DNA from: Bacteroidia bacterium
Lineage (GTDB): Bacteria > Bacteroidota > Bacteroidia > UBA4408
Direction: 5' to 3'
DNA: 64,000 bases
Assembly (NCBI GenBank): GCA_020845635.1
Contig: JADLFI010000037.1
Span: forward strand, 124,001 to 188,000
In this document: positions 693-4,944 of the stretch, piece by piece
Numbering within the stretch: position 1 is the first letter of the stretch
Layout: every line of letters begins with the position of its first letter
Position numbers and translations under genes: made by a program
The notes under the pieces: model-generated
Told to the model about the DNA's origin: nothing
Databases searched by the model: none
Seen by the model: only the letters and a program-made list of their open reading frames with translations

Positions 693-2198
693 CTATGGCC
701 TAACACTAATAAAATAAGGATCAACAGAGACCTCAACTTTTTTCTTGGGAATTAATTCCAGAGTGTTCAAATCAACAAAAGTAAGATAACCGTTTCGGCC
801 TCCACAATCAGATATATGATGCGGTGCAGGCCCGCCTAAAGTGGCATTTCTATTTGCAACAATTAATTGATTGCGTTTTTCATCTACCGTAATTCCGTGT
901 GGTTGATGGCCGGTATAAATATGCTTAACAAGGCTGAGAGAATTTAAATCTATAACTGCTACTGAGCCTCTTAATCCCTGAAAACTAACTGTATCTTCCA
1001 TACATGCGGCAAATAATATATTTCTTTGAAAATCTATGGCTAACTCTTGTGGAAAAGTACCTACGGGAATGGTTTTAATAAGTTTATCATCTGCTGTATT
1101 ATAAATACGTATTTCATTAGTATTTTGACATGAAAGAAAATACCTATTTCCAGATTGCGAAAACAATACATCATGCGGTTTTAATATTTGACCGTTTGAT
1201 TGATCCATTTGAATACGCATACTTATTTCGGGTGATAATGCAGAGTTCCCTTGTGAACTTTGCATATTAATTTTATAGAAGAAGCTAGCTTCCTGCCCAA
1301 ACACATATAAAATATCTTCACTATGATTTAAAGCAACAGCATGCGGGTATGAGAATAAATTAGAACCAACATAGGTAGCTTTTACGGCCATTTCGGTTAA
1401 ATCAATATACTTCACTCTCCCTTCACCGGAAACAGGGCCGTCTCCGGAATTATAGTCAACCGCAAAAGCATATTTAGAATCTTTGGTAATTACAAAGGTA
1501 TTCCAACTACCGAAACCAATATAAGCTTGTGCCACAAAGCTATCATCGGAAGCTCTGAACTTTTGAAAAACGGTTCCATTTAAAAAAATAATGTAATAAT
1601 ATTGGCCATCGGGCGAAACCCTTATTTGATGTGGCGACTCTGTTTGATTCTTTGTTTGTCCTACTTCAAAACACCGCATAGGAAGGTTTGTTTCTGCATC
1701 AAAAACCGTAACCAAATCACAGCCTTGGTTGCATACATAATATTTTGAGCGATTGGGGTTATCGCTAAACTTCACAAAACCATTACTATTAGGGGCTCCC
1801 ACATCAATCCAGTTTCTAATCGTAATTACCTCTTCTTTGGTTAAAGGTGTGTCATTTGTCGGCATGGTGGGTTTTACCCATGTTCCTAACTCATCAAAAG
1901 TATTGCAAAACAAGAACATGGTGCTTTGCTTATGGTTATATGGGATTACGGCTGCTCCGTTGCGAGTACCTTCAAAAAGCTTGTCCCAGCTTGACATGGA
2001 AAGACCTGAAGCAGCCTCTTTGCTTATATCATTATGGCAGCCGCTCACAGCACATTTGTTCAATACTATTTTCCCTATTTGGGGTGGATAGCCTCCACCC
2101 ATTAGGTTCAATTCAATTTTTTCGTCAGGTTTGCAATGGCTGAAAGTTATTGCAACAATAACAACAGCTATAAAAATTCTATTTCTAGAAGACTTCAT
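693..2198 (-). CDS. Lipoprotein with cytochrome c-like haem motif and YVTN-type beta-propeller
   Basis: The chosen ATG (2198) gives 501 residues beginning with a lipoprotein signal peptide whose candidate lipidated Cys is residue 22 (FSHC). An in-frame TTG 66 bases upstream would add a non-signal extension and is rejected. Residues about 38-135 resemble a planctomycete-type cytochrome c domain: the haem-binding site is C49-AVSG-C54-H55, spaced CX4CH rather than CXXCH, and KPTMP (Met112) is a candidate distal ligand. The remainder has repeated segments typical of a seven-bladed YVTN/surface-layer propeller (for example KYYVCNQG, RYFLSCQN). It is probably a membrane-anchored periplasmic or surface redox protein; the electron partner is unknown. 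It is leftward, downstream of xseB. Confidence 0.75.
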   Translation of the reverse strand: MKSSRNRIFIAVVIVAITFSHCKPDEKIELNLMGGGYPPQIGKIVLNKCAVSGCHNDISKEAASGLSMSSWDKLFEGTRNGAAVIPYNHKQSTMFLFCNTFDELGTWVKPTMPTNDTPLTKEEVITIRNWIDVGAPNSNGFVKFSDNPNRSKYYVCNQGCDLVTVFDAETNLPMRCFEVGQTKNQTESPHQIRVSPDGQYYYIIFLNGTVFQKFRASDDSFVAQAYIGFGSWNTFVITKDSKYAFAVDYNSGDGPVSGEGRVKYIDLTEMAVKATYVGSNLFSYPHAVALNHSEDILYVFGQEASFFYKINMQSSQGNSALSPEISMRIQMDQSNGQILKPHDVLFSQSGNRYFLSCQNTNEIRIYNTADDKLIKTIPVGTFPQELAIDFQRNILFAACMEDTVSFQGLRGSVAVIDLNSLSLVKHIYTGHQPHGITVDEKRNQLIVANRNATLGGPAPHHISDCGGRNGYLTFVDLNTLELIPKKKVEVSVDPYFISVRP

Positions 2199-2292
2199 CA
2201 AAATTTTGAATCGGTTAAACAAAATATTAATCCTGCTTTGATACTCATAAAAGCAAAGCCACAAAAAATAAATTAAAAAAGTACCGGCAACT

Positions 2293-2493
2293 TTATTTCT
2301 TCAACTCTTCAACTGCCTTTAAATATTCTTCTTCGGTAAGTTTAAGGCGATTTTTGCAGAAGTTAATTAACTCGTTAGCTCTTTTTACCTTTTCTGTCAG
2401 TTGGTCTAAAGGTACATTATCCTGTTCAATGTCTTTAATAATTTTATTCAGCTCTTTAAAAGCATTTTCGTAGCTCAATGTATCAGCACTCAT
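2293..2493 (-). CDS. xseB: Exodeoxyribonuclease VII small subunit
   Basis: A 66-residue helical protein with the XseB hallmarks: SYENAFKELNKIIKDIE near the N terminus, then a short hairpin turn (NVPLDQ) and a second basic/acidic helix. XseB binds in multiple copies to the C-terminal coiled coil of XseA to form exonuclease VII, which degrades single-stranded DNA from both ends. Length is normal for the family (about 60-80). It lies 57 bases downstream of paaC on the same strand and may be read through from it. Its partner xseA is at 36974-38197 on the opposite strand, so the usual xseA-xseB pairing is broken. Confidence 0.9.
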   Translation of the reverse strand: MSADTLSYENAFKELNKIIKDIEQDNVPLDQLTEKVKRANELINFCKNRLKLTEEEYLKAVEELKK

Positions 2494-2550: not shown

Positions 2551-3312
2551 CTACCATTCGCTATTCGGGAAAGCTCTTTGAACATACTGCATTTCAGTAA
2601 GGATATATCCTAAATGCTCGGTATGAGCGCCTGTTAAGCTGCCTTTTTGCATATATGCGTTTTCCGGTATTTTTAGACAAGCTATTTGCATCACCTCTTT
2701 CACTTTCGTTTCCCAACTCTGTTTGACCTTAGATATTTCAGGGGCAACTTTGGCACTTTCAAGTTCATGATATCCTTGTGGCATGTCAAAGATATCTCCG
2801 GTAAACATCCATAAATCGTTTAAGGCATTTTGAGCCCTTTCATTACTCTCCCTAGTTCCATCGCCTAAACGATACATCCACTCAGTACTGTGTCGCAAAT
2901 GATATTCTTCTTCTTTCACCGCTTTTTCGGCAATTCCTTTCAGCATATCATCGGCACTATTGCACAATTCTTTATAGAAATAGTACGAAAAGGTATCAAC
3001 CAAAAACTGGCGCACCATAGTTTGAGCAAAATCGCCATTAGGTTGTTCGGTAATTAAGGCGTTTTTATATTCAAATTCATTGCGCAGGTAGGCTAAATGA
3101 TCTTCATTTTTTCCGTTGTTTTGGATTTGAGCTGCGTAACCTAATAAATTACCTGCTAATCCAATATAATCAAGAGAAATATTGGTTAAAGCAATATCTT
3201 CTTCCAAATAAGGGCCATGCCCGCACCATTCGGCCAAACGATGCCCCATAATTAATGCATTATCGCCAAGGCGCAAGCATAATTCATATTTTGCTTTATC
3301 TAATGTTGTCAT
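2551..3312 (-). CDS. paaC: 1,2-phenylacetyl-CoA epoxidase, subunit PaaC
   Basis: 253 residues, close to the length of known PaaC (about 250). The sequence is helical and ferritin-like: GDNALIMGHRLAEWCGHGP near the N terminus, LAYLRNEFEYKN, and KEEEYHLRHSTEWM in the middle. PaaC is the structural, non-catalytic partner of PaaA in the diiron multicomponent monooxygenase that epoxidises phenylacetyl-CoA. It follows paaB with a 3-base gap, so the two are almost certainly translated from one message. No paaA, paaD or paaE is adjacent. The family call is strong; whether the complex works here depends on a paaA elsewhere in the genome. Confidence 0.93.
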   Translation of the reverse strand: MTTLDKAKYELCLRLGDNALIMGHRLAEWCGHGPYLEEDIALTNISLDYIGLAGNLLGYAAQIQNNGKNEDHLAYLRNEFEYKNALITEQPNGDFAQTMVRQFLVDTFSYYFYKELCNSADDMLKGIAEKAVKEEEYHLRHSTEWMYRLGDGTRESNERAQNALNDLWMFTGDIFDMPQGYHELESAKVAPEISKVKQSWETKVKEVMQIACLKIPENAYMQKGSLTGAHTEHLGYILTEMQYVQRAFPNSEW

Positions 3313-3315
3313 AAA

Positions 3316-3612
3316 TTATAGGTATTTAACACCGTCAGGTACTTTATAAAATGTTGGATGGCGGTAGGGTTTATTATTTGCTGGTTCAAAAAAGGCTCCG
3401 TTATCTTCGGGGCTGCTGGCTGTTATTTGAGCAGAAGGAATAACCCAAATACTCGTTCCTTCATTTCTGCGGGTATAAGTATCGCGTGCTGCCTGTAAAG
3501 CCATTTCGGCATCGGCTGCATGAAGACTACCTGCATGCTTGTGTGGTATTCCAGGATTACCTTGTATAAACACTTCCCATAAAGGGCCTTGTGATATATC
3601 TTTATTTTCCAT
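3316..3612 (-). CDS. paaB: 1,2-phenylacetyl-CoA epoxidase, subunit PaaB
   Basis: 98 residues, normal length for PaaB. Recognisable features are the WEVFIQGNPGIPHKHAGSLHA opening, the DAEMALQAARDTYTRR helix and the SIWVIPSAQI strand. PaaB bridges PaaAC heterodimers and is needed for activity of the epoxidase. It is the first gene of a leftward paaB-paaC unit and is divergent from the AraC regulator at 3775, with 162 bases between them holding a perfect 16-base tandem repeat. In the usual operon paaA precedes paaB; here that position is taken by the regulator, so the operon is broken at its 5' side. Confidence 0.93.
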   Translation of the reverse strand: MENKDISQGPLWEVFIQGNPGIPHKHAGSLHAADAEMALQAARDTYTRRNEGTSIWVIPSAQITASSPEDNGAFFEPANNKPYRHPTFYKVPDGVKYL

Positions 3613-3710
3613 GATAAAATATTTTAATAGTGCCTAAATGTATTAAATATTTTTTTAAGAATGTGCTTCAAACACCATACTTTTTTCTCTTGAAAATCGA
3701 AATTTATTCT

Positions 3711-3746
3711 TAAATTCTTTAAATTTCATTTAAATTCTTTAAATTT
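3711..3746. repeat. Two perfect 16-base direct repeats, 20-base period, candidate AraC operator
   Basis: The 16-mer taaattctttaaattt occurs at 3711-3726 and again at 3731-3746, with a 4-base spacer. The two copies sit on the same face of the helix (20-base period). The second copy overlaps the -7 box of the AraC-type gene. AraC-family proteins commonly bind pairs of direct half-sites with about 20-21 base spacing, so this is a candidate operator for autoregulation and for control of paaBC. The function is inferred; the repeat itself is seen directly. Confidence 0.6.
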
Positions 3747-3747
3747 G
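3740..3747 (+). promoter_or_regulatory. Bacteroidota -7 promoter element for the AraC-type gene
   Basis: TAAATTTG matches the phylum -7 consensus TAnnTTTG, 27 bases before the ATG at 3775. No clear TTG -33 element is seen at the expected distance; the expected region is occupied by the first copy of the tandem repeat. Confidence 0.5.
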
Positions 3748-3774
3748 TATATTTAAGGGGGCAATAGTGCACTT

Positions 3775-4944
3775 ATGGTTGAATCGTTAATCCTTACTAC
3801 TTTTATATTATCATCTATTATTGGGTTGGTGTGTTTAACATCAAATCTTCCAAGAAATCAGAAAATATATTTAAGTGCTTTTTTTATTTTTATAGCCTTA
3901 AATGCAGGGATGAAATACTTATTAACATCCTATGTTACAATATTTCGTAGTTTTCCCTCCTTGCTGATAGTTCCCGATTTAATTGCTATTCTGATTCCGG
4001 AAATAATTTATTTACTCGTATTAAATCTATTAAACAAAACAATAAGTAAAGAATTATATCTGTATTTATTAATTCTTCCATTGGTTGTGGTTGTTTTTTT
4101 TATGGGATTTTATACTGTAACCGATGGCTTTACAAGCGAGAATAAATTTAAATTGTTTGAAATGTACTTAGGACTAAAAATCCTAACTTTTACTGCTCAT
4201 GTCCTATTTTTTGTTTTTTGTTTACGCGAAATTTCAAAAGCCCTAAGCCCTGATATTTATAATTTAGGAAAACATAATCATATTATGTTGGTGTGGATTA
4301 AATGGTTGTTGTGGCTGTTACTTATTAGGGCTGTTTTTTCCATGGTGTTTTTTACCATGCAAATATTCTTTCAGAATGCCGAGTGGTTTCATATAGCACT
4401 TGAAATTCAATTAGTTCTTGTGTCAATTATTATGTTGATGGCCATTTCGCTAACGGCTTATTACGGATTACGCAACCCAATGCTTTTTGAAACCATTACC
4501 GAAACACCTACTGTTGAACAAACTTTAGCCATTTCAATTTTAGCTCCCGAAACAAAAAAAGATATTAAAAGAACTTTAAAAGAAGAAGATATTGAACCAT
4601 ATCTGGAAAAAATAAAAAGAATTGTTGAAGAAAATAAACTTTTTCTTGATTCGGATTTAACTCCTTCCATACTTGCTCAAAAGGTTGGGATGCCTGTTTA
4701 CAAACTTACCCTTGCGTTAAATAAAGGAGCCGGCAGAAATTTTAATGAGTTTTTAAACTATTATAGAATAAACTATGCTAAAGATTTATTAAGCGACCCT
4801 CAAAATATGAAGCTAACTATTTATGCTATTGCTTTAGAATCGGGGTTTTCGTCAGAGGCTCCTTTTTATTCAGCATTTAAGAAATACGTGGGTACCAGTC
4901 CATCGGCATACAGACAGGTGGTTGACTTGAAAAGCAATAAATAA
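3775..4944 (+). CDS. Membrane-anchored AraC-family transcriptional regulator
   Basis: 389 residues. The N-terminal half (about 1-230) is a string of six to seven hydrophobic segments with short loops, resembling a 7TM-type sensor. After a charged linker (about 255-290), residues about 295-385 form an AraC double helix-turn-helix: DLTPSILAQKVGMPVYKL in the first motif and ALESGFSSEAPFYSAFKKYVG with SPSAYR in the second. It probably senses a signal in or at the membrane and binds DNA from there. It is divergent from paaB, which suggests control of paaBC, although such regulators are common and may act elsewhere. A convergent gene follows across a strong hairpin. Confidence 0.85.
   Translation: MVESLILTTFILSSIIGLVCLTSNLPRNQKIYLSAFFIFIALNAGMKYLLTSYVTIFRSFPSLLIVPDLIAILIPEIIYLLVLNLLNKTISKELYLYLLILPLVVVVFFMGFYTVTDGFTSENKFKLFEMYLGLKILTFTAHVLFFVFCLREISKALSPDIYNLGKHNHIMLVWIKWLLWLLLIRAVFSMVFFTMQIFFQNAEWFHIALEIQLVLVSIIMLMAISLTAYYGLRNPMLFETITETPTVEQTLAISILAPETKKDIKRTLKEEDIEPYLEKIKRIVEENKLFLDSDLTPSILAQKVGMPVYKLTLALNKGAGRNFNEFLNYYRINYAKDLLSDPQNMKLTIYAIALESGFSSEAPFYSAFKKYVGTSPSAYRQVVDLKSNK

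Follow-up and report, generated by a model that had tools for sequence, protein, structure and literature searches.

A paaB-paaC pair apart from paaA: dispersed genes of a probable phenylacetyl-CoA epoxidase in a Bacteroidota lineage

What do two subunits of 1,2-phenylacetyl-CoA epoxidase do where the catalytic one is not beside them? In this enzyme PaaA is catalytic, PaaC structural, PaaB bridging and PaaE the reductase, while PaaD is needed in vivo, according to PMC4498308. In a 2009 survey by Martin and McInerney, paaA, paaB, paaC and paaD each belonged to an operon in all 25 cases, paaE was detached in 4 of 23, and the linkage of paaABCD was ascribed to the physical interaction of products needed in equal amounts (PMC2653477). 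The pair studied here lies in a Bacteroidota draft genome of 3.05 Mb in 60 contigs. The window, i.e., the whole stretch of 64,000 nucleotides that was analysed, starts at position 124001 of the 219-kb contig C37, and the features at the pair, in window coordinates, are:

2293-2493, minus strand: xseB, exonuclease VII small subunit, flank (TIGR01280, 51.2 bits, cut-off 35)
2551-3312, minus strand: paaC, structural subunit of 1,2-phenylacetyl-CoA epoxidase, 253 aa (TIGR02158, 281.9 bits, cut-off 133.35; PF05138, 300 bits)
3316-3612, minus strand: paaB, bridging subunit of 1,2-phenylacetyl-CoA epoxidase, 98 aa (TIGR02157, 124.8 bits, cut-off 85.45; PF06243, 138 bits)
3613-3774, no strand: intergenic stretch of 162 bp that separates paaB from the divergently oriented AraC-type gene and presumably holds a promoter
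3775-4944, plus strand: AraC-type HTH protein, 389 aa, flank (PF12833, 61 bits)

The initial annotation had described both subunits as intact, flanked by an AraC regulator and xseB and lacking paaA, paaD and paaE beside them, and all of this holds. Both ORFs have intact ends and pass the NCBIfam equivalog cut-offs, with family scores that exclude a chance match, and none of the three missing genes was found within C37:110000-129000 around the pair. The spacer between paaB and paaC is 3 bp, and 57 bp separate paaC from the start of xseB. The nearest solved chains are 4iit_B for PaaB (E 8e-36) and 4iit_C for PaaC (E 9e-66). An assignment of PaaC as aldehyde deformylating oxygenase was rejected, the scores being below both cut-offs (PF11266, 19.9 against 28 bits; TIGR04059, 19.6 against 222.65 bits).

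The missing genes are elsewhere in the genome, on other contigs or 66 kb away, which is one of the two options raised at the outset. Together with a paaG-like gene and paaZ they occupy four places:

C42:176459-177394, same strand as recJ: paaA, alone, 17 bp behind recJ (TIGR02156, 517.7 bits, cut-off 280)
C7:9112-9597, strand not given: paaD, followed by the paaG-like gene (TIGR02159, 183.6 bits, cut-off 108.15)
C37:58989-60059, strand not given: paaE, 95 bp behind sdhCAB and at a distance of 66 kb from paaBC (TIGR02160, 393.7 bits, cut-off 420.8)
C34:54165-56216, strand not given: paaZ, full-length two-domain protein (900.5 bits, cut-off 562.8)

TIGR02160 is the best family for PaaE even though its cut-off, which is cleared by only 3 of 40 relatives, is not reached; the protein is full length and has the CX4CX2C motif. 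The PaaG-like protein scores highest against the PaaG family, at 315.0 bits and under the cut-off of 345.15. Across the whole genome PaaB was found once and PF05138, which covers both PaaA and PaaC, twice, giving one PaaA and one PaaC; there is therefore one gene set and no second operon. This rules out the pair as a spare copy of a complete paaABCDE operon located elsewhere, the finding that was to have disproved the initial annotation, and the classical arrangement, with paaA before paaB and paaD after paaC, does not occur in this genome. The genome search that it had proposed thus returned paaA, paaD, paaE, paaZ and a paaG-like gene, but no paaK. Its view that the missing neighbours are unusual is right for paaA beside paaB and wrong for paaE beside paaC, whose absence is ordinary in Bacteroidota. 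The position of paaE behind paaC is that of E. coli; in 80 named loci the gene frequently lies upstream of paaA in divergent orientation, or is not close by.

The integrity of the subunits was assessed at columns at least 95% conserved across 85 linked sets, with which nine split sets were compared; before counting, we removed duplicates and any sequence that was short or truncated at an edge, and the 85 may contain additional copies, for instance the linked set of one congener (G001). The proteins encoded here keep 47 of 47 such columns in PaaC, 24 of 24 in PaaB and 129 of 130 in PaaA. In PaaA the iron ligands E45, E75, H78, D129, E158 and H161 are all kept, as are the residues of the lysine bridge, each at +3 relative to the lists in PMC4498308. 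In split family genomes, the divergence of PaaC relative to PaaA lies somewhat above the prediction from linked sets, with residuals of -0.1 to +2.5 sd over 15 pairs (14 positive) that are not independent of each other. This faster divergence of PaaC could reflect a loosened interface.

Comparison with 40 genomes of the class (our own, G000, included; the genus is G000-G003) demonstrates that the dispersal is real and inherited in a Bacteroidota family. PaaA/PaaC-family genes are present in 31 of the 40 genomes and absent from 9. Among the seven family genomes with paaABC, paaA and paaBC are apart in six (G000, G001, G002, G003, G005 and G006), with G001 carrying a second, linked paaABC set besides the separated one; G004 is the sole case with linked paaA and paaC only. 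G007, an eighth family member that is 71% complete, gave no PaaA/PaaC match. Outside the family the separation was seen in 0 of 24 genomes, all having paaA and paaC on one contig at most 2 kb apart (in G024 and G025 the paaC adjoining paaA is cut by the contig end). PaaA, PaaC, PaaD and PaaE co-occur in all seven paaABC-bearing family genomes, and paaE, judged at E 1e-60, is single and detached in every one of them, G004 included.

The new neighbours of the scattered genes are partly shared. Throughout the genus recJ precedes paaA, at a distance of 17 bp in G000, 33 bp in G001, 18 bp in G002 and 26 bp in G003. G006, a member of another genus, has paaB-paaC 10 bp behind recJ and its paaA at a different place; recJ directly before a paa gene was not found in loci outside the family. 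Since recJ-paaA in one genus and recJ-paaBC in G006 are most simply derived from one ancestral recJ-paaA-paaB-paaC block, these data suggest that such a block was broken twice, paaBC leaving it in the genus of G000-G003 and paaA in that of G006. sdhCAB-paaE is common to G000, G001 and G002; in G003 paaE has the same neighbour on its opposite side, but sdh is not next to it. The adjacency of paaD and paaG is found in all four congeners; paaD and paaC are separated by 13 kb in G002 and by 30 kb in G003, and in G006 paaD adjoins paaA.

The neighbours of paaBC, among the genes listed, differ in each family genome looked at. The araC gene of the window had no match in any related locus searched, so its adjacency to paaBC is not kept, and a role as dedicated paaBC regulator is unsupported, no homologue adjoining paaBC in the congeners. 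An alignment of the region upstream of paaB in the four congeners revealed no shared block. Two further observations concern the xseB side of the pair. No xseA is evident among the genes looked at that adjoin xseB (2293-2493, minus strand). Inspection by eye places a haem-like CxxxCH motif close to the start of the protein encoded at 693-2264 (minus strand), ahead of a beta-propeller that resembles YncE/lactonase; the protein's match to clade III nitrous-oxide reductase is weak (29 bits, cut-off 700) and that assignment was rejected.

Separation took several forms in Bacteroidota. We inspected the 80 best named PaaC relatives for paaA within 10 kb, and a paaA ORF was found in 68 of these loci. 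The other 12 comprise four cut by a contig end (L108, L120, L158 and L159), one (L154) whose paaA match did not qualify as a complete open frame, and seven separations (L081, L128, L089, L097, L138, L140 and L152), of which L081 and L128 are G001 and G006 again. Whole-genome searches for the remaining five located PaaA elsewhere in three: G040 has A apart from BCD, G043 has A apart from BC, and G044 has AB apart from CDG. G041 and G042, two metagenome-assembled genomes (loci L097 and L138), contain paaC-paaD-paaG and gave no PaaA; they are either incomplete bins or have retained PaaC without PaaA. In quick trees, with weak deep branches, of 104 PaaC and 98 PaaA rows (too-short or end-identical rows dropped) the copies of the genus form a single clade, with support of 100 and 96, respectively. 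The split PaaC copies within the family require three changes on the PaaC tree, and the split may have had one origin or several.

Taken on these sequence comparisons, the pair very probably represents PaaB and PaaC of an otherwise ordinary PaaABCE epoxidase whose operon was taken apart in this Bacteroidota lineage. PaaA would be supplied by the gene behind recJ and PaaE by the one behind sdhCAB; PaaD, with a presumed part in iron loading, would share a third locus with the PaaG-like protein, and PaaZ would have a fourth. The subunits would meet after translation to form the usual PaaABC complex plus PaaE. PaaB and PaaC, being co-translated, may act as the scaffold on which the separately translated PaaA docks. 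According to PMC4498308, PaaAC, PaaBC and PaaABC are stable subcomplexes and PaaA by itself is insoluble. The latter counts against this reading, because separate synthesis of PaaA should then cost something; so do the scores of PaaE and the PaaG-like protein below their cut-offs, the failure to find PaaK and the somewhat faster divergence of PaaC. Housekeeping expression, more than induction, is suggested by recJ and sdhCAB as neighbours and by the absence of a shared block in front of paaB: the genes probably track their housekeeping neighbours and not a phenylacetate-responsive regulator.

The second option of the initial annotation was that the pair has another job. Such a job without PaaA, e.g., as a scaffold or binding protein, could draw on the isolation of the pair at this locus, on the slightly faster PaaC of split genomes, and on G041 and G042, which have PaaC without a PaaA match. 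These two are metagenome-assembled genomes whose completeness is not stated, however, whereas PaaA is present in every one of the six split genomes of the family, ours among them, and every conserved column of PaaB and PaaC is intact, which makes another job very unlikely. It is about as hard to believe that the dispersed genes are relics, now in decay, of a pathway that has been lost. Their linkage and PaaK have been lost, and the nine class genomes without PaaA/PaaC-family genes would agree with decay, but all frames are open, the conserved residues are kept, PaaA is 85-95% identical among the four congeners, and the four proteins PaaA, PaaC, PaaD and PaaE persist together in all seven family genomes with paaABC.

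An artefact, in which contig breaks, a binning error or contamination part genes that truly adjoin, deserves mention since the assemblies are drafts and paaD sits on a 23-kb contig. This reading is largely refuted and, in our assessment, extremely improbable: paaBC and paaA lie 126 kb and 176 kb into contigs of 219 kb and 201 kb, respectively, each between unrelated neighbours; the genome is 99.99% complete with 0.21% contamination; the same split occurs in G003, an assembly of about 20 contigs, on contigs of 567 and 260 kb; and recJ-paaA was found again in four genomes.

An epoxidase encoded by dispersed genes would still need its substrate, and phenylacetyl-CoA would come from phenylalanine turnover via an enzyme other than PaaK. 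PaaK (TIGR02155) gave no match at E 0.001 in our genome, in a search that picked up members of this family in 10 of 14 controls. No full PaaK-type ligase was found in the family, the only matches being of 23 bits (G002) and 149 bits (G007, without paaABC). Among the 31 paaABC-bearing genomes, a PaaK-type match above 500 bits occurs only in G028, beside its paa genes; the matches of 132-168 bits in G010, G016, G027 and G036 could be working ligases.

A 2-oxoacid oxidoreductase that makes phenylacetyl-CoA from phenylpyruvate is a known kind of reaction. In our genome the genes immediately upstream of paaZ are korB, korA and one that is GltD-like, and this 2-oxoacid:acceptor oxidoreductase might replace PaaK in that way. 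We consider this improbable: paaZ is not next to this gene set in G003, G004, G012 and G008, and the kor subgroup is listed in G000, G003 and G004, with no comparable match in the PaaK-less G001, G002, G005 and G006. The linkage of paaZ to korAB looks accidental, and the candidate, which was based on it, was dropped as the linkage is not conserved. A true indolepyruvate oxidoreductase alpha subunit (TIGR03336 above 500 bits) was found only in G014, G022, G033 and G038 and in no family member. The block of GltD-like gene, korA and korB itself (C34:56755-61445 of G000, equal to L023:11756-16446) is conserved in G000, G003, G004, G012 and G008, and G000 has a second KOR pair near C37:105 kb.

A broader, tentative and rather doubtful extension of the split-operon reading is that the oxygenase was repeatedly dismantled into genes behind recJ and sdhCAB and now forms a constitutive module of phenylalanine turnover with a PaaK-independent feed, in which PaaBC would serve as scaffold for PaaA.

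What is new here is not the kind of enzyme but the dispersed layout of its genes without PaaK. Similar to the PaaABCE enzymes of E. coli and Klebsiella (PDB 3PW1, 4IIT), the four subunits and PaaD are present (PaaE under its cut-off), PaaA, PaaB and PaaC align to their chains over nearly the full length, and the iron ligands are kept. Unlike in those systems, the genes lie at several places and not in an operon, and PaaK was not found. The operons of Martin and McInerney, as described in PMC2653477, consist of the same genes and include cases of detached paaE, but in our genome paaA, paaBC and paaD are at three separate places. A 2026 survey of phenylacetate degradation in 6,536 genomes also uses PaaA and PaaC as pathway markers; it is anchored on paaK with 20 genes on either side, and Flavobacteria make up 1.6% of its bacterial sequences (PMC13186573). 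Because of this anchoring, genomes without paaK and with scattered genes, such as ours, would be missed. No mention of split paaA/paaC or PaaK-less Bacteroidota was found in search listings of the open-licence PMC literature.

With a PaaK-type match above 500 bits in only 1 of 31 paaABC-bearing relatives, paaK-anchored surveys overlook likely aerobic phenylacetyl-CoA degraders. A lineage in which paaABCD was split, apparently in more than one way, is also a natural test of the idea that operons provide interacting products in equal amounts (PMC2653477), and it would show how a complex with an aggregation-prone subunit can assemble from distant genes.

The second, linked paaABC set of G001 (contig C22, L053:1765-6235) lies directly beside a gene for 4-hydroxyphenylpyruvate dioxygenase (TIGR01263, 445 bits). 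The same locus encodes a 384-aa protein that resembles homogentisate dioxygenase by eye, with no NCBIfam match at 1e-20. The PaaC of this set groups with a PaaC of G012 with a support of 100, and the set may have been acquired. Its 4-hydroxyphenylpyruvate dioxygenase neighbour fits a role in aromatic amino acid breakdown for this second set alone.
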